From a virus, in the IMG/VR virus record IMGVR_UViG_3300044633_001177, positions 1 to 52,047 of that record: a DNA stretch of 52,047 nt; one strand, 5' to 3'. The position numbers were made by a program, and so were the translations under genes. Shown one piece after another: positions 5,106 to 42,620 of the stretch; position 1 is the stretch's first letter, and each line of letters starts with the position of its first letter. The notes beneath the pieces were generated by a model that was given only the letters and a program-made list of their open reading frames with translations, had not been told where the DNA came from and searched no databases.

Positions 5106-5333
5106 ATGCCCAAAAACAAAGACCTGACCAAACAAATTGATTACTCGAAATATCACCGGCCATTGGTGCCGTGGACCGGCACTCATCTAGGGCGGACGTG
5201 GCGCACCACCCCGGGGCAAGATGACGACATGAAGAAGATGAATTTTGCCCTCCTTCGCCGGGGGCTCTTCGACCTCAACCCGCCCAAGGCTCGCCGCGTT
5301 GATCGCATCTTCGGGGGTGCCCTCGCGTGGTAG
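5106..5333 (+). CDS. Small basic protein of unknown function
   Basis: 75 aa, strongly basic, with an Arg/Lys-rich C-terminal half (LRRGLFDLNPPKARRVDRIF). The ATG at 5106 follows a C/A-rich leader. A longer frame back to 5037 overlaps the previous gene and is not preferred. It ends 22 nt before the endolysin start. No family recognised. Confidence 0.5.
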   Translation: MPKNKDLTKQIDYSKYHRPLVPWTGTHLGRTWRTTPGQDDDMKKMNFALLRRGLFDLNPPKARRVDRIFGGALAW

Positions 5334-5355
5334 GATTGACGGGGCGGGCTTGGGC

Positions 5356-6081
5356 ATGACAACCCAAGAATCCGCGCTTTGGCGCTCCATCCAAGAACTG
5401 CTCAACCTCTCCCATAGCATCGCGCCCGCCCTCAAGGTGGACGGAGTTCCCGGGGGGCTTACTCAAGCCGCCATCACGAAGGCGATCACGGCCGCCCGTA
5501 TCAAGGCCGCTCCGGTCAAGATCGCCGAAACACCCACCTCGCCCCCTGCCGTGCCCGTGGTGCCCGTTGTGGTGGTTGCCCCTACCGTCACCCTGTCCGG
5601 GATTGATGACCGCTCTATGGGCAACCTCACCACGCTGAACGTGAAGGTTCGCCCCATGTTCACCGCCATCCTTTTGGAAGGGAAGCGGATCGCCAAGGAA
5701 TTGGGGGCCGGTGACTACCGCCTCATTTCCGGGAATCGCACCTACGCCCAACAAAATGCGCTCTACGCTCAAGGGCGCACCACCTCCGGGCCAATCGTCA
5801 CCAACGCGAAGGGCGGATATTCCAACCACAACTTCGGCATCGCGGGAGACTTTGGCGTTTTCGGCACTGATGGGAAATACTTGGACGATACCAACGGGGC
5901 GCTCGCCTACAAGGTCCACGCCGCGGTTGCGAAATGGGCCAAGGCCACGTTCCCCGGGAAGGCCGCGTGGGGTGGTGATTGGACCTCATTCCAAGACACT
6001 CCGCACTTTGAATACAAGACAGGGCTTTCCCTGACCACCATGCGGGCAAGGGTGGCCAATGCTCAAGACGTTGTGGATTGA
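5356..6081 (+). CDS. Endolysin, M15 L-alanyl-D-glutamate endopeptidase
   Basis: 241 aa. The catalytic domain (about residues 82-225) carries the CwlK/VanY M15 signatures: SGNRTYAQQNALYAQGR (125-141), SNHNFGIAGDFG (156-167, zinc ligands H158 and D165) and WGGDWTSFQDTPHFEY (205-220, zinc ligand H217). Enzymes of this family cut the L-Ala-D-Glu or related bond in peptidoglycan stems. Residues 1-45 resemble a short peptidoglycan-binding helix pair, joined by a Pro/Val-rich linker (58-78). There is no signal peptide, so release would need a holin. The ATG at 5356 has TTGAC 20 nt upstream. Holin candidates are nearly 29 kb away. Confidence 0.9.
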   Translation: MTTQESALWRSIQELLNLSHSIAPALKVDGVPGGLTQAAITKAITAARIKAAPVKIAETPTSPPAVPVVPVVVVAPTVTLSGIDDRSMGNLTTLNVKVRPMFTAILLEGKRIAKELGAGDYRLISGNRTYAQQNALYAQGRTTSGPIVTNAKGGYSNHNFGIAGDFGVFGTDGKYLDDTNGALAYKVHAAVAKWAKATFPGKAAWGGDWTSFQDTPHFEYKTGLSLTTMRARVANAQDVVD

Positions 6082-6103
6082 TGGAAAAAATATGATTGGC
6101 CCC

Positions 6104-6136
6104 TTGTGAATACGTATTTGTTGCGCATTCTATACA
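6104..6136 (+). promoter_or_regulatory. Possible promoter before 6185
   Basis: An AT-rich break in GC-rich DNA contains TTGTGA (6104-6109), the palindrome AATACGTATT (6109-6118), TGCGCAT and TATACA (6131-6136). The spacing is irregular, so the exact -35 is unclear. A C/A-rich leader of about 45 nt follows to the ATG at 6185. Confidence 0.4.
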
Positions 6137-6184
6137 CCCACCCCGCAAGGTGCCAATCACAACCACACCCGATACCCAATCCCC

Positions 6185-6529
6185 ATGGCCAAGATCATTT
6201 CAGCGAACTACCGCAATCGCAAATCCGAATACAAGTGGCTAGTGCGTGACGAAATGGACCCTGTTCACGATGCTATTGCCTACAAGAGCGTCACTGCCAA
6301 TGGGGTGGCCTTCCGACAAGCTGATCAAGAGATTGGCTTCGGTTGCTCCATGGTGGCCATTGCTAGGGAAGCCACTGGCACGGACGCCGAACGCGCTCCG
6401 ATCAAGCTCAAAACGATTGGCCTTAAATTTGTGGTGGCAAGCTTCGTAAGCGATGGGCAAACCATCACTGAAGTGAACACCCTCACGCTTGGCGCGGACG
6501 GTTCGATGATTGCCACGGTTCCCAACTAA
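6185..6529 (+). CDS. Protein of unknown function, monocistronic
   Basis: 114 aa, compact and beta-rich by eye (KLKTIGLKFVVASFVSDGQT; VNTLTLGADGSMIATVPN). It has its own upstream AT-rich promoter-like region and is followed within 50 nt by a terminator, so it is probably transcribed alone. Such isolated units are often expressed independently of the lytic programme, but nothing in the protein shows its role. Confidence 0.65.
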   Translation: MAKIISANYRNRKSEYKWLVRDEMDPVHDAIAYKSVTANGVAFRQADQEIGFGCSMVAIAREATGTDAERAPIKLKTIGLKFVVASFVSDGQTITEVNTLTLGADGSMIATVPN

Positions 6530-6576
6530 CGAGGATTCCTTGGCGGTTGAACAACTAACGAAACCACAAAGCAAGG

Positions 6577-6607
6577 AAGGGCGACGGGTGGCCCGCTGCC
6601 CTTTTTT
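6577..6607 (+). terminator. Rho-independent terminator
   Basis: Stem AAGGGC (6577-6582) with GCCCTT (6598-6603), inner GGG/CCC pairing in the loop, and a T run at 6602-6607. It closes the transcript of the gene at 6185. Confidence 0.7.
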
Positions 6608-24790: not shown

Positions 24791-24847
24791 GGTTTTTTCA
24801 TTTTATGCGCATAAAATACTTGCACAATCCGCTTGCGCTTGTAAAGT
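24791..24847 (+). promoter_or_regulatory. Operator-promoter module, leaderless type
   Basis: A T-rich element, perfect TTTTATGCGCATAAAA (24801-24816), -35 TTGCAC (24820-24825), 16-bp spacer, -10 TAAAGT (24842-24847). The ATG at 24854 is 6 nt downstream. The -35 and -10 are identical to those at 10095-10122. Confidence 0.85.
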
Positions 24848-24853
24848 GGGGAC

Positions 24854-25075
24854 ATGCAAAACACTACAGAAAAGCCCGTCAAGGTTTCCTCCTACAGGGG
24901 GGAGACCATCTACACCTACAAGGGACACCGCATCTACACGGAGAGAAAGACTGAGAGGACTTACTCCTGCGGGCTTTGCCGCTCAACAAGCTGGACCTCA
25001 ACCCACGTTGGAAGCAAGGCAATCAGTGGCGGGTTGAAGGACGCGGTTCGACTGATCAACGCGGGTAAAATTTAA
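24854..25075 (+). CDS. Small cassette protein, paralogue of 38450
   Basis: 73 aa. The start PVKVSSYRG and the end GLKDAVRLI align with PIKVSEFRG and GIRDAVRKL in the 74-aa protein at 38450; both have CGL and a TSW/TTW segment in the middle. This copy has CGLC in a short finger-like loop. Both genes are first in line behind the same leaderless promoter module, so gene and promoter were probably duplicated together. Function unknown. Confidence 0.65.
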   Translation: MQNTTEKPVKVSSYRGETIYTYKGHRIYTERKTERTYSCGLCRSTSWTSTHVGSKAISGGLKDAVRLINAGKI

Positions 25076-34909: not shown

Positions 34910-34943
34910 ACGGTCCGATGCCTTGACACACCGGGCTTGATTG

Positions 34944-36368
34944 ATGCCCGACCCTATCGCTTTGCGCCGCGCCGCCGCTGATGCCTTCGCATCACGTGCC
35001 GCTGAATTCCTCACCACCGCCGAAGCCGGGCGGGAACTCTACCGCTCCACGGGAGTTTTCGACAATCCGGAGCAAGCCCGCCTTGCCATCTTCCGCGCCA
35101 TGGGGCGGGCTAGTTGCGAAGTGAGCGCCGGAGACACCCCGGAACCCGTCGCCGCCTCTCACGCCGCAAGCAACGCCACCGAATGGAGCGAAAACGCCGA
35201 CAAGGGAACCGCTTCGTTTCAATTCAAGGGGGCGCTTGATTCCCCCATGAAGGTGGACGAATTGCTTGCCGCCAGTGGCGTGGACCTCACCAAGTGGAAG
35301 GTGTCCGGGATCGAGGTGAAGGCGTGGGGAGTCACTTCCAAGATTCGCGAGTTCGCGGAAGGCCGCCCAATTGGCGAATACCTCCAAGCCGGGAAAAACT
35401 TTTACCTCTCCGTTAAACTCACGGAGCGCAAGGCCACCGTTGCCGAAGCGATGGCGGAGGCGGAAGGGCGGATGATTTCGCGCTTGAGTAATGAACCCAT
35501 CCGCTACATGCCCCCGGCCGATTTCCTCGCCGCCGGGGAGGACACCGCCAACCGCCTTTTGGAGCCTTGCATTTTTGACCTCCATCTCGAAAAGCTCGCG
35601 TGGGGGCCGGAGACCGGCGGGGCCGATTGGGGCACCAAGATCGCCGCGTCCGGGTGTCTCGCCGCCGCGGAAGATTTGCTCAACCATTACCGCCACTTTG
35701 GCCGGATTCTCTTACCGCTTGGAAATGACTTTTTCCATTGCGACAACATGAGGCAAAACACCTCCAACGGTTCGCACCTACTGGATGCGGACGTGAGGTG
35801 GGCGGAGGCATGGGACACCGGGTGTGACGTGGCCATCAACCTTGTGAAGCTTTGCCTTGAGTTCGCCCCGGTGGACGTTCTCATCATCCCCGGAAACCAC
35901 GACACGCAACGATCCACCTTCATGGGGCGCGTCCTCAAGGAATGCTTTCGCGCCACCGATCATGTGACCGTGGATCACTCCCCCGGCTCAATGAAGCGCT
36001 TCCGGTGGGGGCGGACACTTCTAGGCTTTTGCCACGGGAGTCCGCGGAATGAACCCTACCACAAGCTTGGGATGGAAATGATGACCCGATGGCCGGAAGA
36101 CCTCCCGGGGACCGTCCATCGCGAGTGGCACGTTGGGGATCAACACCGGATGCGCTCGCAATCAATGAACATCGAAGGCTTTGAGGAACAGTCCTTGCGG
36201 GTCCGCGTGATTCCTTCGCTTTGCTCCCCGGACGCTTGGCACGCCGCCAACCTCTACCACAACATCCGGGCCGCGGAGTGCTACTTGTGGCACAAAGAAG
36301 ATTGCTACGTTGGGCACCACTCCTACAACATCGCCCTCCGGGGCAAGGATCGCGCCCGCCTCGCGTGA
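34944..36368 (+). CDS. Calcineurin-like metallophosphoesterase
   Basis: 474 aa. The C-terminal 270 residues carry the metallophosphoesterase motifs: FDLHLEKLAWG (D-x-H), LLPLGNDFFHCDN (GND), VLIIPGNHDTQ (GNHD), GFCHGSPRNE and EWHVGDQHRMRSQ (G-x-H type). Phage proteins of this kind are annotated as DNA repair exonucleases or phosphodiesterases. The N-terminal 190 residues hold a probable HTH (DNPEQARLAIFRAMGR-like helix pair) and a SASGVDLTKWKVSGIEVKAW-type domain. The ATG at 34944 has TTGACA 21 nt upstream; a TTG at 34941 is less likely. Confidence 0.85.
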   Translation: MPDPIALRRAAADAFASRAAEFLTTAEAGRELYRSTGVFDNPEQARLAIFRAMGRASCEVSAGDTPEPVAASHAASNATEWSENADKGTASFQFKGALDSPMKVDELLAASGVDLTKWKVSGIEVKAWGVTSKIREFAEGRPIGEYLQAGKNFYLSVKLTERKATVAEAMAEAEGRMISRLSNEPIRYMPPADFLAAGEDTANRLLEPCIFDLHLEKLAWGPETGGADWGTKIAASGCLAAAEDLLNHYRHFGRILLPLGNDFFHCDNMRQNTSNGSHLLDADVRWAEAWDTGCDVAINLVKLCLEFAPVDVLIIPGNHDTQRSTFMGRVLKECFRATDHVTVDHSPGSMKRFRWGRTLLGFCHGSPRNEPYHKLGMEMMTRWPEDLPGTVHREWHVGDQHRMRSQSMNIEGFEEQSLRVRVIPSLCSPDAWHAANLYHNIRAAECYLWHKEDCYVGHHSYNIALRGKDRARLA

Positions 36369-36497: not shown

Positions 36498-36543
36498 TTT
36501 ATGCGCATAAAACACTTGCGCTCTAGCCGCTTGCGCTTATGGT
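36498..36543 (+). promoter_or_regulatory. Operator-promoter module before amidoligase
   Basis: Palindrome TTTATGCGCATAAA (36498-36511), -35 TTGCGC (36516-36521), 16-bp spacer, -10 TATGGT (36538-36543). Unlike the others it is followed by a leader of about 29 nt to the ATG at 36579. Further ATGCGC words lie just upstream (36470-36496). Confidence 0.75.
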
Positions 36544-36578
36544 TGGATCACAAAGGAAACACCAACCGAAACCACACC

Positions 36579-37457
36579 ATGCCAACCACCCCCTCCACCG
36601 CCACCAACTACTCCACCGATCGCCAGTTTGGCATTGAACTTGAATTCAAGGGCAGCGCCTACGAAGCCAACGCTAGATTGAACGCGGCCGGTATCGCCTC
36701 CGAAGTGGAAAGCTACAACCACACCACCCGTGACCGCTTCAAGTTCGTTTACGATGGAAGCGTCTCTACCAACTTGAACGTGGGCGGCGAATTGGTGAGC
36801 CCCATCCTCCGCGGTGAGGCCGGAATTGAGACCGCCAAGGCCGCCGCCAAGGCGCTCTCCAACGGTGCTAAAGTGGATCAATCTTGCGGTTTCCACGTCC
36901 ACATTGATGTCTCCGACTTCACCCTTTTCAATTTCAAGAACCTCGCCAAAATTTGGCTCAAGTTTGAAGATGTGATGGAATTCACCATCGCCAAAAGCCG
37001 CCGCGGAAGCGCTCGCTATTGCGCCTCCAACCTTCAGAACTTCCGCTCCTACCGCGACTCCGATTCCTCGCTCTCCCCCGCTGCCAATCAGTGCAAGATG
37101 GATTGCGCCGCCCTTGTTCGTGCCTTCGCCGCAATCGACGCTTGCACCACGATCGAGCAGATTGTGGAGCTCTTCCCCGGCCGCTACTGGAAGATGAACC
37201 TCCGCTCCTTCTTCCGCCACCAAACCGTCGAATTCCGCCTTCACCAAGGCACGGTAAACGCGACCAAGGTGGAAATGTGGGTGCGCCTCATGAACTACAT
37301 CGTGATGAGCGCCAAGAGCACCCGCGGCAAGGTGGCCCCTCGCAAGGACGACGGCAAGACCGGAATCGGCCGCCTCCGCTCGCTCTTCTACGGTGGCCGC
37401 GATGCCCACGTTTGCGCCTACTTCATCAAGCGTGCCAAGGTGCTCGCGGCCGCCTAA
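36579..37457 (+). CDS. Amidoligase (COOH-NH2 ligase) family enzyme
   Basis: 292 aa. Signatures of the putative amidoligase family: FGIELEF (17-23), KFVYDGSV (55-62), GGELVSPIL (69-77), CGFHVHID (103-110) and TVEFRLHQGT (217-226). The fold is that of glutamine synthetase/gamma-glutamylcysteine ligase. These enzymes are predicted to join a carboxyl to an amine with ATP, for example adding amino acids to a protein or small molecule. Nearby are two gamma-glutamylcyclotransferase-like genes (37901, 40125) that could undo or trim such links. An ATG at 36579 is preferred over the frame open from 36501, which would include the promoter. Confidence 0.85.
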   Translation: MPTTPSTATNYSTDRQFGIELEFKGSAYEANARLNAAGIASEVESYNHTTRDRFKFVYDGSVSTNLNVGGELVSPILRGEAGIETAKAAAKALSNGAKVDQSCGFHVHIDVSDFTLFNFKNLAKIWLKFEDVMEFTIAKSRRGSARYCASNLQNFRSYRDSDSSLSPAANQCKMDCAALVRAFAAIDACTTIEQIVELFPGRYWKMNLRSFFRHQTVEFRLHQGTVNATKVEMWVRLMNYIVMSAKSTRGKVAPRKDDGKTGIGRLRSLFYGGRDAHVCAYFIKRAKVLAAA

Positions 37458-37470
37458 TGCGAGCCCTTAC

Positions 37471-37490
37471 GGAGGGGCTCCGGCCCCTCC
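37471..37490 (+). terminator. Possible hairpin terminator or attenuator
   Basis: Perfect 8-bp stem GGAGGGGC/GCCCCTCC with loop TCCG, 14 nt after the amidoligase stop. No T run follows, so it may only slow transcription or protect the mRNA end. Confidence 0.4.
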
Positions 37491-37538
37491 TGCTCTCTCC
37501 ACCCTACCAACTCACCAAACGCCCCCACAACGCAAACC

Positions 37539-37850
37539 ATGAGCAAAGCCACCCAATCCCACGCGCTCCGCGCCCCCTTCATTCCGATCGCCCCGGAATT
37601 CACCACCTTGGACGGCGCACAATTCCGCGCCGCCACCGCCTTGGAATTCTGCCACCAACTCCGGGAAGCCTCCCACAACCCGGGGCGGTCCTTCGCCCAT
37701 TACCTCGCCGCCACCGCCCGCGCCGCCACGCTCTACAACGGAGCGCACCACCGGGGGGACACGGCGGAAAACCTCACGGCGGACCTGATCACCTCCGGAC
37801 TTGTTGTGGTCACGGAGGCGGTGGACCCGAACTTCCCCCGCCTCGCCTAA
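37539..37850 (+). CDS. Protein of unknown function
   Basis: 103 aa, mostly helical (FRAATALEFCHQLREASHNP; SFAHYLAATARAATLYNGAH; TAENLTADLITSGLVVVTEA). No family recognised. It lies between the amidoligase and the first cyclotransferase-like gene, so it may be a partner or a substrate of that chemistry. That is only a guess from position. C/A-rich leader. Confidence 0.6.
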   Translation: MSKATQSHALRAPFIPIAPEFTTLDGAQFRAATALEFCHQLREASHNPGRSFAHYLAATARAATLYNGAHHRGDTAENLTADLITSGLVVVTEAVDPNFPRLA

Positions 37851-37900
37851 TCCCCCGGGCCGCCCTCACTCTTCCCCTAACACTCTCCCCACCATCCCCC

Positions 37901-38386
37901 ATGAAAACGCTTTACTTCGCTTACGGTTCCAACCTCATGAAAGACCAAATGCGCCAACGATGCCCCGGCTCCATGCCGGTGGCGCGGGCGGAACTCCCGG
38001 GCTGGCGTTGGCTCATCGGCGAGCGGGGCTTCGCCACCATCGCGCCCTCCGCCAAGGCCACCGTCTACGGAGCGCTCTACGAACTCACGGAGCGCGATGA
38101 GGCCCGCTTGGACATTAGCGAAGGGGTGGCGGCCGGGTGCTATGGGAAATTCATCCTTGAAGTGTCGGTAAGGGATCGCGCCAAGGTCAAGGCCGTGAAC
38201 CGCGCGAAGCTCGCCGCGTCCAACCCGGTCCGCGCCCTTGTCTACATCGACCCGCGTGTCCGCCGCGGGGAACCATCCCATGACTACCTCCGCCGGTGCG
38301 TGCAAGGGGCGGACAAGTGGAACCTCCCGGACGAAGCCACCGAAACCATGCTTGAGTATTTCGAGGGCGGGGAACTCCCCTTTTGA
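37901..38386 (+). CDS. Gamma-glutamylcyclotransferase-like (AIG2) enzyme 1
   Basis: 161 aa. LYFAYGSNL (4-12) is the diagnostic AIG2/GGCT motif, and ELTERDEARLDISEGVAAGCY carries the catalytic-type glutamate (E74). Enzymes of this fold turn a gamma-glutamyl amide into 5-oxoproline and the free amine. With the amidoligase upstream it could remove or edit a gamma-linked tag. The large open frame that begins at 37019 is only the out-of-frame read of the amidoligase; the ATG at 37901 follows a C/A-rich leader. The TGA opens the next promoter module. Confidence 0.85.
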   Translation: MKTLYFAYGSNLMKDQMRQRCPGSMPVARAELPGWRWLIGERGFATIAPSAKATVYGALYELTERDEARLDISEGVAAGCYGKFILEVSVRDRAKVKAVNRAKLAASNPVRALVYIDPRVRRGEPSHDYLRRCVQGADKWNLPDEATETMLEYFEGGELPF

Positions 38387-38443
38387 AGTATTTTCATTTT
38401 ATGCGCATTAAATGCTTGCGCAATCCGCTTGCGCATCTATAAT
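38387..38443 (+). promoter_or_regulatory. Operator-promoter module, leaderless type
   Basis: Starts at the stop codon of 37901. AGTATTTTC element, TTTTATGCGCATTAAA (core 38401-38408), -35 TTGCGC (38416-38421), 16-bp spacer, perfect -10 TATAAT (38438-38443). Second inverted repeat TGCGCAATCCGCTTGCGCA at 38417-38435. The ATG at 38450 is 6 nt past the -10. Confidence 0.9.
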
Positions 38444-38449
38444 GAACCC

Positions 38450-38674
38450 ATGAGCAACATCAAGCCAATCAAAGTCAGCGAATTCCGCGGTGTTAAAAGC
38501 TACCGCTTCGGAACTTGGTTCATCACCGTCACTAGAACGACAGAAAGCACCCGCCAAGGATGCGGTCTCCGGCACAACGAAACATTCACGACTTGGCGTG
38601 CCAAGCATGACGATGGGCGCGAGGCGCTCGCCGGATACGGTGGCATTCGCGATGCCGTCCGCAAGCTCGCCTAA
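38450..38674 (+). CDS. Small protein, paralogue of 24854
   Basis: 74 aa. KPIKVSEFRG at the start and GGIRDAVRKL at the end match the protein at 24854, with a CGL and a TTW segment between. The second cysteine of the CGLC loop is missing here (CGLR). The leaderless promoter fixes the start at 38450; a longer frame from 38429 would begin inside the -35/-10 spacer. Function unknown. Confidence 0.7.
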   Translation: MSNIKPIKVSEFRGVKSYRFGTWFITVTRTTESTRQGCGLRHNETFTTWRAKHDDGREALAGYGGIRDAVRKLA

Positions 38675-38695
38675 CACTCCCCCCAATCCACCCAC

Positions 38696-38995
38696 ATGAA
38701 CAGGCTCACCACCGGTGCCACCGTCACCCTCACCAAATCCGATTGGACCCGCCCCGCCACCTTCACCGTGGTCCGCGTCTACCAGAACGGAAACGCCTCC
38801 CTTCGCTCCGCCGAAATCGGGAACCGGGACCGGATCAAGATCACCCCGGCGAATTGCGCCGAATTCCAAATCCTCGCTATCCATCAACGGCAACCCGATC
38901 GTCCCATGAGACGCCACGCCAACCCGCTCCCCGTTCTTTTCCTGTTCGCTCTCTACATCCTCGCCGAATCACTTCCCGGACTTCTTTTCCCATGA
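38696..38995 (+). CDS. Protein with C-terminal membrane helix
   Basis: 99 aa. Residues 1-65 look like a small beta-barrel (TTGATVTLTKSDWTRPATFT; VVRVYQNGNASLRSAEIGNR), and residues 77-99 a membrane helix (PLPVLFLFALYILAESLPGL) at the very C-terminus. Possibly a tail-anchored membrane protein. It overlaps the next gene (ATGA). No family recognised. Confidence 0.55.
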   Translation: MNRLTTGATVTLTKSDWTRPATFTVVRVYQNGNASLRSAEIGNRDRIKITPANCAEFQILAIHQRQPDRPMRRHANPLPVLFLFALYILAESLPGLLFP

Positions 38996-39267
38996 AAACC
39001 CCCAAATCCCTCCCGCTCCCCGCCCCCGGCTCCATCATCACCACCGCTTGGACCATCCCGCAAAAGTGGCATCGCACCACTTGGCGTGTGAATGACAACG
39101 GCACCGCCACCCCGATCCACCGGCAACACTATTGGTGTAGTGTTAGGGGTGCCCTTGAAGTGATCGAAAACGGCACCCCCGCCCCGATCACCCCCAAGCT
39201 CTTCCCGGCATCCGGGCGAGTCTTGCTCACCATCAACGGGGACGTGGTGGAGAACGGGAAATTTTGA
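38992..39267 (+). CDS. Small protein of unknown function
   Basis: 91 aa. Beta-rich with several Trp (ITTAWTIPQKWHRTTWRVND; RQHYWCSVRGALEVIENGTP). Starts at the ATG that overlaps the previous stop; a longer frame from 38743 is a shadow. The TGA is directly followed by the next promoter module. Confidence 0.55.
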   Translation: MKTPKSLPLPAPGSIITTAWTIPQKWHRTTWRVNDNGTATPIHRQHYWCSVRGALEVIENGTPAPITPKLFPASGRVLLTINGDVVENGKF

Positions 39268-39313
39268 AATATGCGCATAAAACACTTGCGCAAAGCGCTT
39301 GCGCATCCATATT
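39268..39313 (+). promoter_or_regulatory. Operator-promoter module, leaderless type
   Basis: Short form without the T-rich element: ATGCGCAT (39271-39278), -35 TTGCGC (39286-39291), 16-bp spacer, -10 CATATT (39308-39313). Inverted repeat TGCGCAAAGCGCTTGCGCA at 39287-39305. The ATG at 39320 is 6 nt downstream. Confidence 0.8.
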
Positions 39314-39319
39314 GAACCC

Positions 39320-39547
39320 ATGAGCAACACCTCCCCCACCGAAACTCCCGCCCTCAAATCCTTCCGCGCCATCAAATGGGATGGAAGGCGCTACCATGAC
39401 GCGACCACCTCCCCCTTTCGGGTGGCGGCCGAAAACCCCAACCCCGAACTTTTCAGCGAGTGCGCCACCCGCGACCTTCGCGGCGCTTACAAGCTTTGGA
39501 GCGAAACGAAGAGTGGAGCCACCACGGAGGTGTGGGGCTGGCTTTGA
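39320..39547 (+). CDS. Small protein of unknown function
   Basis: 75 aa. Pattern FRAIKWDGRRYHDATTSPFR, then CATRDLRGAYKLWSETKSGA and a closing EVWGWL, consistent with a small alpha/beta domain. Start fixed by the leaderless promoter. The first codons (ATGAGCAACA) equal those of the gene at 38450, so the promoter and start region were probably copied together. Confidence 0.6.
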   Translation: MSNTSPTETPALKSFRAIKWDGRRYHDATTSPFRVAAENPNPELFSECATRDLRGAYKLWSETKSGATTEVWGWL

Positions 39548-39582
39548 TCCTCCCGGCCGCAAACCCTAACCAACCACCGATC

Positions 39583-40128
39583 ATGCCCACGCCCACCCAA
39601 CCAATCCCCTACGCCACCGCCAAGAGCCTGACCGCCAACCTCACGGAGCTTTTCTTGGGCTACCGGGGAAGGGATCGCGCCACCAACGTGAGGGTGGCCG
39701 CCGGGCCTTACCCGGCCACCGTGGACGAATCCATTGATGACTCCCTCCGCTACCGCGCCGGAGTCCTCCAGCTTGTGGCGGAGTTTGCCGTGGACCACCC
39801 CTTCCGCGGGACGAACTTGGAGCGCTTCCGGAAGTTGGCCGCCCTCCATGTGGCCTTGTGTGACATCTACGGGCGCTTTCCCATCCTTTGCGCCGAAGGG
39901 CTCACGGGCGAGCATTCCGGCGGAAGTTCGTTTTCACCCGTCTCCAACACGATCACCCTCCGGGGCCGCCTGTCCGTGATTACATACCTCCACGAATTTG
40001 GCCACGCCCTCGGGAAGAATGAGGCGGGCGCTTGCCGGTGGTCACTGAACATTTTCAAGCGGGTTTTTCCCGTTGCATTCTCCCGCCTTACGGCAGTTAA
40101 TCACACCCTCACCCGCCCGCAATCATGA
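39583..40128 (+). CDS. HEFGH zinc metalloprotein
   Basis: 181 aa. SVITYLHEFGHALGKNEAGA (131-150) has a gluzincin-type HExxH (137-141) and a nearby glutamate (E147) that may complete the site; CRWSLNIFKRVFPVAFSRL follows. A helical N-terminal part with RFRKLAALHVALCDIYGRFP precedes it. Similar proteins in plasmids and phages are annotated as hypothetical or SprT-like. Its stop overlaps the start of the second cyclotransferase-like gene, which ties it to the amide-bond enzymes of this region. A peptidase role is plausible but unproven. Confidence 0.7.
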   Translation: MPTPTQPIPYATAKSLTANLTELFLGYRGRDRATNVRVAAGPYPATVDESIDDSLRYRAGVLQLVAEFAVDHPFRGTNLERFRKLAALHVALCDIYGRFPILCAEGLTGEHSGGSSFSPVSNTITLRGRLSVITYLHEFGHALGKNEAGACRWSLNIFKRVFPVAFSRLTAVNHTLTRPQS

Positions 40129-40580
40129 CCAAAGCCCCCACTATTGTCACCGTTGAAACGACACCCACCTCCCCGGCGAGGGCGGTGGAGATTTGCCCAC
40201 TCGTCTTCGTCTACGGCACCCTCAAGCGGGGCCACATGAACCACCGGATCTTGGAGCACGGCAACGCTGAATTCCTCGGGACCGCCGCCACCCTCCGGGA
40301 TCATTCCCTATTCGTGGACGGGCTTCCCTACCTTGTTGAGGGAACCCATGAAGACCCCGGCTCGCATCAAGTCCGCGGGGAACTCTACAAGGTGGACGCC
40401 GAAACGATGGCGAGCCTTGACCGCTTGGAAGGCCACCCGCGCTTCTATGAGCGCCGCCTCGCCCGCTTCGTCTATTCGGATCGCCACACACCGGATGGAG
40501 CCGCTCCCCGCGCTTGGGTTTACTACCACCCGTGGAGCCCCCAATTTCTCAACCTCACCCCCCTCAAAGAATACAAGTGA
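40125..40580 (+). CDS. Gamma-glutamylcyclotransferase-like enzyme 2
   Basis: 151 aa. LVFVYGTLKRGHMNHRIL (YGTLK at 30-34) and VRGELYKVDAETMASLDRLE (E102 in LDRLEGHPRFY) are the two motifs of the GGCT/AIG2 family, of the YGTLK type seen in gamma-glutamylamine cyclotransferases, whereas the gene at 37901 has the YGSN type. The two enzymes therefore probably differ in substrate. It overlaps the HEFGH gene by 4 nt. Confidence 0.85.
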   Translation: MTKAPTIVTVETTPTSPARAVEICPLVFVYGTLKRGHMNHRILEHGNAEFLGTAATLRDHSLFVDGLPYLVEGTHEDPGSHQVRGELYKVDAETMASLDRLEGHPRFYERRLARFVYSDRHTPDGAAPRAWVYYHPWSPQFLNLTPLKEYK

Positions 40581-40591
40581 CCACCACCGCC

Positions 40592-40786
40592 ATGAGTGAA
40601 GACGAAACACCACCCACCCCCAAGGGAGTCGCCCGCTACCTAGCCTCAATCGGCAAGCGGGGCGGAAGCTCCGGGACCGGAGACGCCAAGCGCCGGGGAG
40701 ACTCCTCCCACTACTCCGAACTTTCCAAAAAGCGTTGGGCCGCCAAGAAAAAAGCGGACGCCGCCGCCAAGCGGAATCCCGGGTGA
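40592..40786 (+). CDS. Small basic protein
   Basis: 64 aa. GVARYLASIGKRGGSSGTGD, then SELSKKRWAAKKKADAAAKR: a Gly-rich turn between basic helices, as in KGG-type stress proteins and small nucleic-acid-binding proteins of phages. The start follows the previous stop by 11 nt in a C/A-rich stretch. The TGA opens the next promoter module. Confidence 0.5.
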   Translation: MSEDETPPTPKGVARYLASIGKRGGSSGTGDAKRRGDSSHYSELSKKRWAAKKKADAAAKRNPG

Positions 40787-41102: not shown

Positions 41103-42620
41103 TCACCCGAAGTGGGGGCGGAGAATCACCGCCTCCGCTTCGGCTTCCGGGGCGAGCCCCTCAAGCTCCCAATCCCCGCCGGGCAACTCCCGCCACGTCA
41201 CCGGCTCCGCCCTGTCATGAAATTCGACCGTGAACCACCGGGGGGCATTCGATTCGGCCGTGATTCGGCGGACCGTTTGCGCGATGGCCACCGCCCGCCC
41301 TTCCTCCGTTGTCCAATCCGCCTCACTGGCGCGAGCCGGGGGCGCGTCCTCCAATAGCGCCAGCGTGGCGCGTAGCGCATCGCGCCGCACCTCCGCTGCC
41401 ATGAGTGCCGCCGTGAGCGCCTCGCTTGCTCCTGCCGCGCCAAGGGCACCCACAAGGTTGGCAATCTTCGCGTGGACTTCCTCAAGTTGGAGGCGCACCA
41501 CTTGGCCGGAATCGTCAGCGGGCTGGATTTCCGCCCGGCTCGCTTCGATCGCCACCGCCGTGAAAAGCGCCATGAACTCGCGCAATGGCCATGAGTGCCG
41601 CCGCCCGGCTCCCGCTTCCCCCGCGCTTGTCCGAAGGTAGGCGTAAAGCTTCCCGCTCACCGTCATGGCGTGGAGGTGGAAGGCGAAGCCCTCCGGGCAA
41701 AAGATGAGCCCGCGGAACGGGTTGGCCGCGGGGTTGTCCGTCCTCCCTTTCTGATGCCGCCGCCGCTCGCGAAGCCGCTGGACCCGCGCCCAATCCTCCG
41801 GGGAAATGATCGCGGGGAAATAGCCCTCAATCGGAGCGAGCGCAATGCCGCGCTTCCCCCCTCGCCTTTCGGGGCCGGACCTTGGGGTGAACTCACCCAA
41901 CACGCTCCGACCGTCCACGATTGTGGCGAGGCTTGAAACGCGCCACTTGCCACCGCGGGCCGCGGGGATGCCATCTTGATTGAGCGCCTTCGCCACCGCT
42001 GCCATTCCAGCCCCGGCGAGGACCATGCCGAAGATTCTCCGGACGATCGCCGCCGCCTCTTCGCGGACGTGCCATTTGCCCTCGCGTAGCTCAAGCCAAA
42101 AGGGGCCATTGGCGCTCATGGGTTGGGCCAACGCTTCCGCCCGCTTCCTCTCCCACGACTCCCGGCCGCGGTGCGACTTGGTGGCGCTCTCTTCATTCGC
42201 CCGCGACATGATCAAGAGAGAATACATCATCTCCATCATCATGTTCGGGGCGCTCGCGTCATAGACGTGGCCATCCGCCAGCGTGACCACGGACACCCCG
42301 GCGTTGATGATTTGGAGGAAGATCGGGAGGGCGAAGTTCACCTCAAGCCGGGAAATCCGATCAAGGCTTTCAACCACCAAGAGGGAGCCCGGCGGAATGC
42401 GTCCAGCCTCCACCGCTGCCAAGAATTCCCGCAACGCGCCCGCCGTGGAGTTCTTGCCCCGGAACGCGGAAACGCCAAGGTCACGGTAATTGTCCGCAGG
42501 GGTGGCCCCGTTGGAGGCGCACCACGAAGCAAAGCCCGCGTCCTGCCGCCTCACGGAGTCCCCGCCCGCTTGGGCGAGCGATGAAAAGCGAACATACGAA
42601 AACGCAAGGCGTGCGGACAT
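41103..42620 (-). CDS. Large serine recombinase (integrase)
   Basis: 505 aa. N-terminal resolvase domain with YVRFSSLAQAGGDSVRRQ (catalytic Ser expected at RFSS) and SLLVVESLDRISRLEVN. A recombinase domain follows (about 160-250: GPFWLELREGKWHVREEAAA, VAKALNQDGIPAARGGKW). The zinc ribbon region is reduced: FCPEGFAFHLHAMTVSGKLY has one Cys and no CxxC pair. The C-terminal part has a coiled coil (about 370-440). Catalyses attP x attB integration; a directionality factor was not identified. The start lies 6 nt after a TAACAT -10, so it is also probably leaderless. Confidence 0.9.
   Translation of the reverse strand: MSARLAFSYVRFSSLAQAGGDSVRRQDAGFASWCASNGATPADNYRDLGVSAFRGKNSTAGALREFLAAVEAGRIPPGSLLVVESLDRISRLEVNFALPIFLQIINAGVSVVTLADGHVYDASAPNMMMEMMYSLLIMSRANEESATKSHRGRESWERKRAEALAQPMSANGPFWLELREGKWHVREEAAAIVRRIFGMVLAGAGMAAVAKALNQDGIPAARGGKWRVSSLATIVDGRSVLGEFTPRSGPERRGGKRGIALAPIEGYFPAIISPEDWARVQRLRERRRHQKGRTDNPAANPFRGLIFCPEGFAFHLHAMTVSGKLYAYLRTSAGEAGAGRRHSWPLREFMALFTAVAIEASRAEIQPADDSGQVVRLQLEEVHAKIANLVGALGAAGASEALTAALMAAEVRRDALRATLALLEDAPPARASEADWTTEEGRAVAIAQTVRRITAESNAPRWFTVEFHDRAEPVTWRELPGGDWELEGLAPEAEAEAVILRPHFG

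Follow-up and report, generated by a model that had tools for sequence, protein, structure and literature searches.

A phage cassette linking an amidoligase and two gamma-glutamyl cyclotransferases to a zincin-like protein family, with a possible role in amide modification

Amidoligases are annotated widely in phages, and to our knowledge a substrate is known for none of them. The closest described systems are the clusters of phiEco32, of UFV-P2 and the LUZ24-like phages and of Arthrobacter cluster AL, in which an Amidoligase_2 protein is linked to an AIG2/GGCT protein (Iyer et al. 2009). Amidoligases beside AIG2/GGCT proteins, with or without a glutaminase, have been noted in UFV-P2, LUZ24-like phages and Arthrobacter cluster AL, and also in Clostridium and Terrisporobacter prophages and in phage ZRK32 (PMC10945688). 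These published phages agree with a remark in the initial annotation of the locus described here, that amidoligases lie near AIG2-type proteins. The locus is a cassette in the 52,047-nucleotide IMG/VR virus record IMGVR_UViG_3300044633_001177, the whole of which we call the window. It shares the Amidoligase_2 protein and its AIG2/GGCT partner with the phiEco32-like clusters, but differs from them in having two cyclotransferase subtypes, a zincin-like family marked by an HEFGH motif, and a small open reading frame (ORF) at 37539. The class II glutaminase of the phiEco32-like clusters is shared by most zincin-bearing relatives of the cassette and is absent from the window, and another phiEco32-like feature, an ATP-grasp ligase, had no match among the 30 window ORFs scanned, without a directed search for it. 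The new part is the HEFGH zincin-like family, the pairing of amidoligase and cyclotransferase being already known; our literature search, confined to open-access papers with subscription papers outside it, turned up no account of the 37539 small ORF or of any zincin family associated with amidoligases. We tentatively read the cassette as a phage system for amide modification of peptides or proteins, comprising a small helper ORF alongside four linked enzymes, and put this reading somewhat short of an even chance.

The zincin-like family occurs together with amidoligases. Genome contigs gave no match when first searched with the HEFGH sequence, and neither did viral contigs when searched for close relatives with the amidoligase sequence alone; alignments were required in both cases. 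At the nucleotide level the region found no matching relative among phage records, nor did any relative of the window integrase, sought as a control, turn up. Family alignments scanned over viral and genome contigs identified 26 distinct HEFGH loci (numbered with an L; L028 duplicates L014, and L024 duplicates L025). Of the 26, 21 have an amidoligase gene no more than about 3 kb away, among them the window and L030, whose ligase belongs to PF14395 (COOH-NH2 ligase). L015, L017, L019 and L025 were considered as exceptions to this rule and rejected as such, as whole-record searches found a PF12224 amidoligase elsewhere within each viral record. The remaining locus, L022, lies on a fragment of 4.7 kb, whose start falls within a gene for a class II glutaminase. 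The zincin and a glutamine-synthetase-type amidoligase (PF12224 or PF14395) are found together in 25 of the 25 records long enough to judge; by comparison, tblastn with the window amidoligase matches 44 of 50,697 phage records, a rate that is an insensitive lower bound.

Mapped onto a tree of 94 amidoligases, linkage to the zincin requires no fewer than 5 label changes (18.4 on average after shuffling), two of them forced by well supported branches, and the partnership of zincin and ligase has therefore been gained or lost repeatedly. The zincin-linked sequences comprise a clade of 12, the window with L016, L014 with L021, L029, L031 and the long-branched L114. L016 (IMGVR_UViG_3300006417_000090) is the closest relative of the window, with proteins 43-66% identical to the window's and the same order of phosphoesterase, amidoligase, small ORF, GGCT, HEFGH, GGACT, basic small ORF and integrase. 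Third codon positions are the most variable between the two cassettes, including within the ORF at 37539-37850. That the cassette is unrelated cargo, gathered in one accessory region without a joint function, is largely refuted by this co-occurrence. This idea fits an accessory region with small ORFs (38450-39547) inserted between its genes, but the order kept at such divergence, the repeated association on the tree and the 25 of 25 records leave it with hardly any credence.

The family appears to be chiefly viral, because a survey of 392 Planctomycetota genomes yielded just one further genome with a member, itself weak (E 8e-4). This phylum was surveyed as that of L113, a contig of a Phycisphaerae metagenome-assembled genome that carries part of an amidoligase and part of a zincin, both running into other reading frames (5222-6602); this bacterial contig is possibly a decaying prophage.

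The cassette region lies between a phosphoesterase/DNA-repair exonuclease-like gene (34941-36368) and an integrase gene (41103-42620, minus strand), with the following features.

36500-36545, plus strand: operator-promoter module 1, 5′ of the amidoligase gene, an exact match to the seven-copy module
36579-37457, plus strand: amidoligase (Amidoligase_2, glutamine-synthetase fold), 292 aa, PF12224 and phrog_2443
37539-37850, plus strand: conserved small ORF, 103 aa, between the amidoligase and the first cyclotransferase
37901-38386, plus strand: GGCT-type gamma-glutamyl cyclotransferase, 161 aa, YGSN at 8-11, catalytic Glu74
38400-38447, plus strand: operator-promoter module 2, ending in a -10-like TATAAT 6 nt 5′ of the ATG at 38450
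38450-39267, plus strand: three small ORFs (38450-38674, 38696-38995, 38992-39267), no family match, absent from L016
39270-39319, plus strand: operator-promoter module 3, 5′ of the 39320 ORF and the HEFGH gene
39320-39547, plus strand: small ORF, 75 aa, not core, no family match, absent from L016
39583-40128, plus strand: HEFGH protein, 181 aa, zincin-like family
40125-40580, plus strand: GGACT-type gamma-glutamylamine cyclotransferase, 151 aa, YGTL at 30-33, Glu102, Tyr108
40592-40786, plus strand: small basic ORF, 64 aa, conserved 3′ of GGACT in L016
40801-40847, plus strand: operator-promoter module 4, the downstream boundary of the cassette

All four enzyme genes are confirmed where the initial annotation had placed them, three by profile matches and the HEFGH gene without one, and the co-occurrence of their families, to be sought by neighbourhood searches, was found in many other phages. 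The amidoligase matches PF12224 (E 1.3e-34; 120.6 bits, cut-off 22) and phrog_2443 (E 1.9e-39), and was modelled with AlphaFold (AF2; predicted local distance difference test (pLDDT) 90.7, predicted template modelling score (pTM) 0.90). When the model was compared with the PDB using Foldseek, YbdK, GshF (bifunctional glutathione synthetase), glutamine synthetase and Dop were matched (E 2e-5 to 8e-4), and gamma-glutamylmethylamide synthetase is also among the fold matches. Gly18, Glu20, Glu22, Asp59, Ser61, Glu71, Ser74, Gly104, His106, Asn207, Glu218 and Arg220 are unvarying in 52 relatives; Glu20, Glu22, Glu71, His106, Glu218 and Arg220 among them correspond to the acidic and His residues expected at the metal and ATP site of this fold. 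The catalytic residues, whose loss would have undone the proposal of a ligase, are kept, and the protein is predicted to be an intact carboxylate-amine ligase of the glutamine-synthetase fold. This fold is common to the pupylation enzymes PafA/Dop and to YbdK, but the amidoligase is only 9-12% identical to them and much smaller, and no Pup-like tag was identified; the 37539 product is small and encoded beside the ligase, but compared with such a tag it has a variable C terminus without a final Glu or Gln. An in-frame upstream ATG at 36501 was rejected as the amidoligase start, as it falls within the operator-promoter module.

The two cyclotransferases belong to different subtypes, as the initial annotation had proposed. 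The 37901 protein matches AIG2_2 (5e-12), GGACT (4.5e-9) and phrog_2520 (1.3e-20), and its best solved relative is human GGCT (2I5T/2PN7, E 4e-5), with which its Y8 G9 S10 N11 loop and E74 align. The 40125 protein, the ATG of whose gene overlaps the HEFGH stop codon by 4 bp, matches PF06094 (E 4.1e-22; 79.4 bits, cut-off 22.8), and its best solved relative is human GGACT (3JUB/3JUC, E 8.5e-14). It retains Y30 G31 T32 L33, E102 and Y108, the counterparts of Tyr7-Leu10, Glu82 and Tyr88 of GGACT (PMC2954230). The catalytic residues are intact in both proteins, which are predicted to be gamma-glutamyl cyclotransferases of two specificity classes. The loop and catalytic Glu are common to the phage proteins and their closest solved relatives, human GGCT (C7orf24) and human/mouse GGACT (A2LD1); unlike these, the phage enzymes are phage-encoded and linked to a ligase, and their substrates are putative. 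With an intact ligase and two cyclotransferases, a linked gene set for joining and breaking amide bonds, as first suggested from the sequence, is well supported.

Gamma-glutamyl groups have precedents in small-molecule chemistry, namely polyamine use through gamma-glutamylputrescine and the gamma-glutamyl protecting group in butirosin synthesis. The cassette might likewise encode a small-molecule pathway, in which an amine metabolite would be given a gamma-glutamyl or amino-acid group by the ligase and lose it again through the cyclotransferases, with the zincin processing a peptide precursor or serving as an accessory. Among the fold matches of the amidoligase, YbdK, GshF, gamma-glutamylmethylamide synthetase and glutamine synthetase are small-molecule ligases; human GGCT and GGACT act on small gamma-glutamyl compounds (PMC2954230), and nitrogen or amino-acid metabolism has been suggested for phage ZRK32 (PMC10945688). 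The same fold matches include peptide/protein ligases and the depupylase Dop, which we count towards the modification system that we favour. A small-molecule pathway leaves the restriction of the peptidase-like family to ligase-encoding records unexplained, and no biosynthetic or transport genes adjoin the cassette, which makes it rather unlikely.

Searches of Pfam, PHROGs and NCBIfam returned no match for the HEFGH protein. None of 23 aligned family members (an alignment that leaves out L116, whose motif is lost) passes a Pfam cut-off, and the weak Pfam matches of the family are putative metallopeptidases (DUF4344, DUF6782, MPTase-PolyVal). L136, H137, E138, H141, E147, W153 and S154 are invariant across this alignment; H137, E138, H141 and E147 form the zincin hallmark of HExxH plus a third conserved ligand residue. 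In the AF2 model (pLDDT 90, pTM 0.87), H137 and H141 lie within helix 132-142 and E147 opens helix 147-161. An HExxH helix with a Glu starting the next helix is also the arrangement of IrrE/PprI and other minimal zincins (Peptidase_M78, SprT), from which the HEFGH family differs in having neither a Pfam match among its 23 members nor a significant fold match. Fold searches with the model gave nothing significant, the top PDB match being PprI/IrrE (E 0.8, TM 0.20), and the weak viral fold matches include IrrE-like, SprT-like and metallopeptidase proteins. Sequence searches of the family against solved structures returned chance-level matches only; among the 23 members, the Peptidase_M78/IrrE profile matched none even at E 1, SprT none and MPTase-PolyVal one (E 0.015). 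We also considered a metzincin reading of HEFGHALGKNE (HExxHxxGxxE); the fixed metzincin spacing is disfavoured because L015, L030 and L031 have 2-10 residues inserted before the Glu. We regard the HEFGH protein as a member of a zincin-like, previously undescribed family with putative zinc-binding and cleavage activity. Its earlier description as a possible peptidase is strengthened, given that this divergent zincin-like family is confined to amidoligase-encoding records, and hitherto unannotated proteins gain a family worth naming.

Three minor observations concern individual members. In L017, L019 and L025 the zincin gene adjoins genes for another protein, with an HEEAH motif, and for an RNase H-like protein; in L025 the zincin is in tandem duplicate; and the family member at L119:5955-6629 has an apparent frameshift.

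The third partner of the ligase and the zincin varies. Most zincin loci have a class II glutaminase domain protein and no GGACT, and the N-terminal Cys is kept in nearly all of these glutaminases. The window, L016 and L029 have cyclotransferases and lack GATase_6, which was not found anywhere in the window record, and in L014 and L021 a GGACT accompanies the class II glutaminase. In phage C75C1 (L006:9708-10601) a class II glutamine amidotransferase domain and a GGACT domain are fused in one protein, and GGACT, amidoligase and glutaminase genes are adjacent in Arthrobacter phage Shrooms. Glutaminase and cyclotransferase thus appear able to replace each other across phages. Because both open a gamma-glutamyl amide bond, they may have a related role, either amine release for the ligase or gamma-glutamyl removal. 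The exchange suggests a shared handling of a gamma-glutamyl amide, a chemistry that is testable by mass spectrometry.

In the modification system that we favour, the zincin would cut or trim a peptide or protein substrate, exposing or removing a group, and the amidoligase would join an amine to a carboxyl group on that substrate. The cyclotransferases, or in most relatives the class II glutaminase, would open a gamma-glutamyl amide and so either supply the amine to the ligase or erase the modification. At least two transcripts from operator-controlled promoters, amidoligase-37539-GGCT and 39320-HEFGH-GGACT-40592, would deliver these products. A more specific form, 'cut and cap', would have the peptidase make a carboxyl end that the ligase caps with an amine freed by the glutaminase or cyclotransferase from a gamma-glutamyl donor, the zincin being the dedicated partner and the amine sources interchangeable; we think this version quite improbable as it stands. 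The restriction of the zincin family to amidoligase-encoding genomes directs the search for targets towards peptides or proteins, and the cassette suggests an unexplored route by which phages may chemically modify a component of the cell. The four-gene set is compact, kept in diverged relatives and transferable to a laboratory host.

Several observations weigh against the modification of peptides or proteins. Such a substrate is suggested solely by the presence of the peptidase-like partner. Among 80 sampled amidoligase loci, the fetched flanks contain a GGCT in 54 and a zincin in none, and the zincin is therefore an optional addition. The zincin and amidoligase genes lie far apart in the L017/L019/L025 clade and in GR1. 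Finally, the family member at L116:5440-5970 has lost its active site (LHAFTAARG), and in at least one phage the role of the zincin may be non-catalytic.

Gene content indicates that the window belongs to a temperate siphophage, with genes for terminase, portal, head protease, capsid, tape measure and tail fibres, together with a serine integrase, a Sak4-like annealing protein, a helicase and a primase. A temperate phage with the cassette next to its serine integrase would suit envelope modification, in which the ligase would decorate the host cell wall or a surface polymer with a peptide or amino acid, excluding other phages by lysogenic conversion, while the cyclotransferases and the zincin would trim wall peptides. 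Such a role has been proposed for phiEco32-type amidoligases by Iyer et al. 2009, as that work is cited in PMC10580990, PMC11318856 and PMC11253131. However, inspection of the cassette, with no predictor run, revealed neither a signal peptide nor a membrane protein, and the operator-like elements suggest that the genes may be repressed in the lysogen rather than constitutive. We consider envelope modification unlikely.

The position beside the integrase and the patchy distribution of the cassette also fit an anti-defence or host-takeover role, in which the enzymes would inactivate a host immune protein or signal, and it has been suggested that R2K-type peptide ligases serve phages in modifying host proteins (PMC4431377). 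PADLOC matched none of the four window proteins, nor the product of the 37539 ORF, and no neighbouring defence or anti-defence gene was recognised. The anti-defence option raised in the initial annotation thus finds no support here, and we give it a very slim chance. In 11 zincin contigs (L005:4598-6261, with neighbours in L018, L020, L023, L026 and L115-L119), a ParB-like gene and an ABC-ATPase/GNAT fusion lie near the amidoligase cluster; PADLOC weakly matches this fusion to MADS proteins (mad3, E 3e-10). These neighbours recall DNA-modification clusters, and the amide chemistry could conceivably serve to hypermodify the phage's own DNA or nucleotides. The window cassette has no such neighbours, no base-modifying enzyme was identified there, and the ParB-like and ABC-ATPase genes may just reflect one phage lineage; hypermodification seems a highly improbable, if marginally better, candidate.

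The operator-promoter modules described in the initial annotation are real. There are exactly seven copies of TATGCGCAYNAAANNCTTGC in the window, where 0 are expected by chance, all on the plus strand and preceding genes (10079, 22971, 24804, 36500, 38400, 39270 and 40801); the last four lie in or beside the cassette region, three modules being within the cassette. Module 1 comprises the operator-like palindrome TATGCGCATA, a TTGCGC -35-like box and a GCTTGCG repeat. On inspection, several copies lead into a -10-like hexamer 6-11 nt 5′ of an ATG, and mRNAs starting from such a box should therefore be nearly leaderless. Together, the seven modules suggest nearly leaderless mRNAs under one regulator. 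L016 has equivalent modules, built of the same parts, in front of its amidoligase gene and directly in front of its HEFGH gene.

The small ORFs that had been counted with the enzymes fall into two groups. The 37539 ORF is conserved, with homologues in just the window, L016 and L029, always between amidoligase and GGCT, and the 40592-40786 ORF is likewise conserved in L016. The ORFs at 38450-39547 have no family match in Pfam, PHROGs or NCBIfam and are probably outside the module, being missing from L016; they look like an insertion carrying its own promoters. The segments 24804-25072 and 38400-38674 are diverged duplicates of a module and its first gene: their promoter-region DNA is 89% identical and the small proteins encoded at 24854 and 38450 resemble each other, as if promoter and small gene had moved as one unit.

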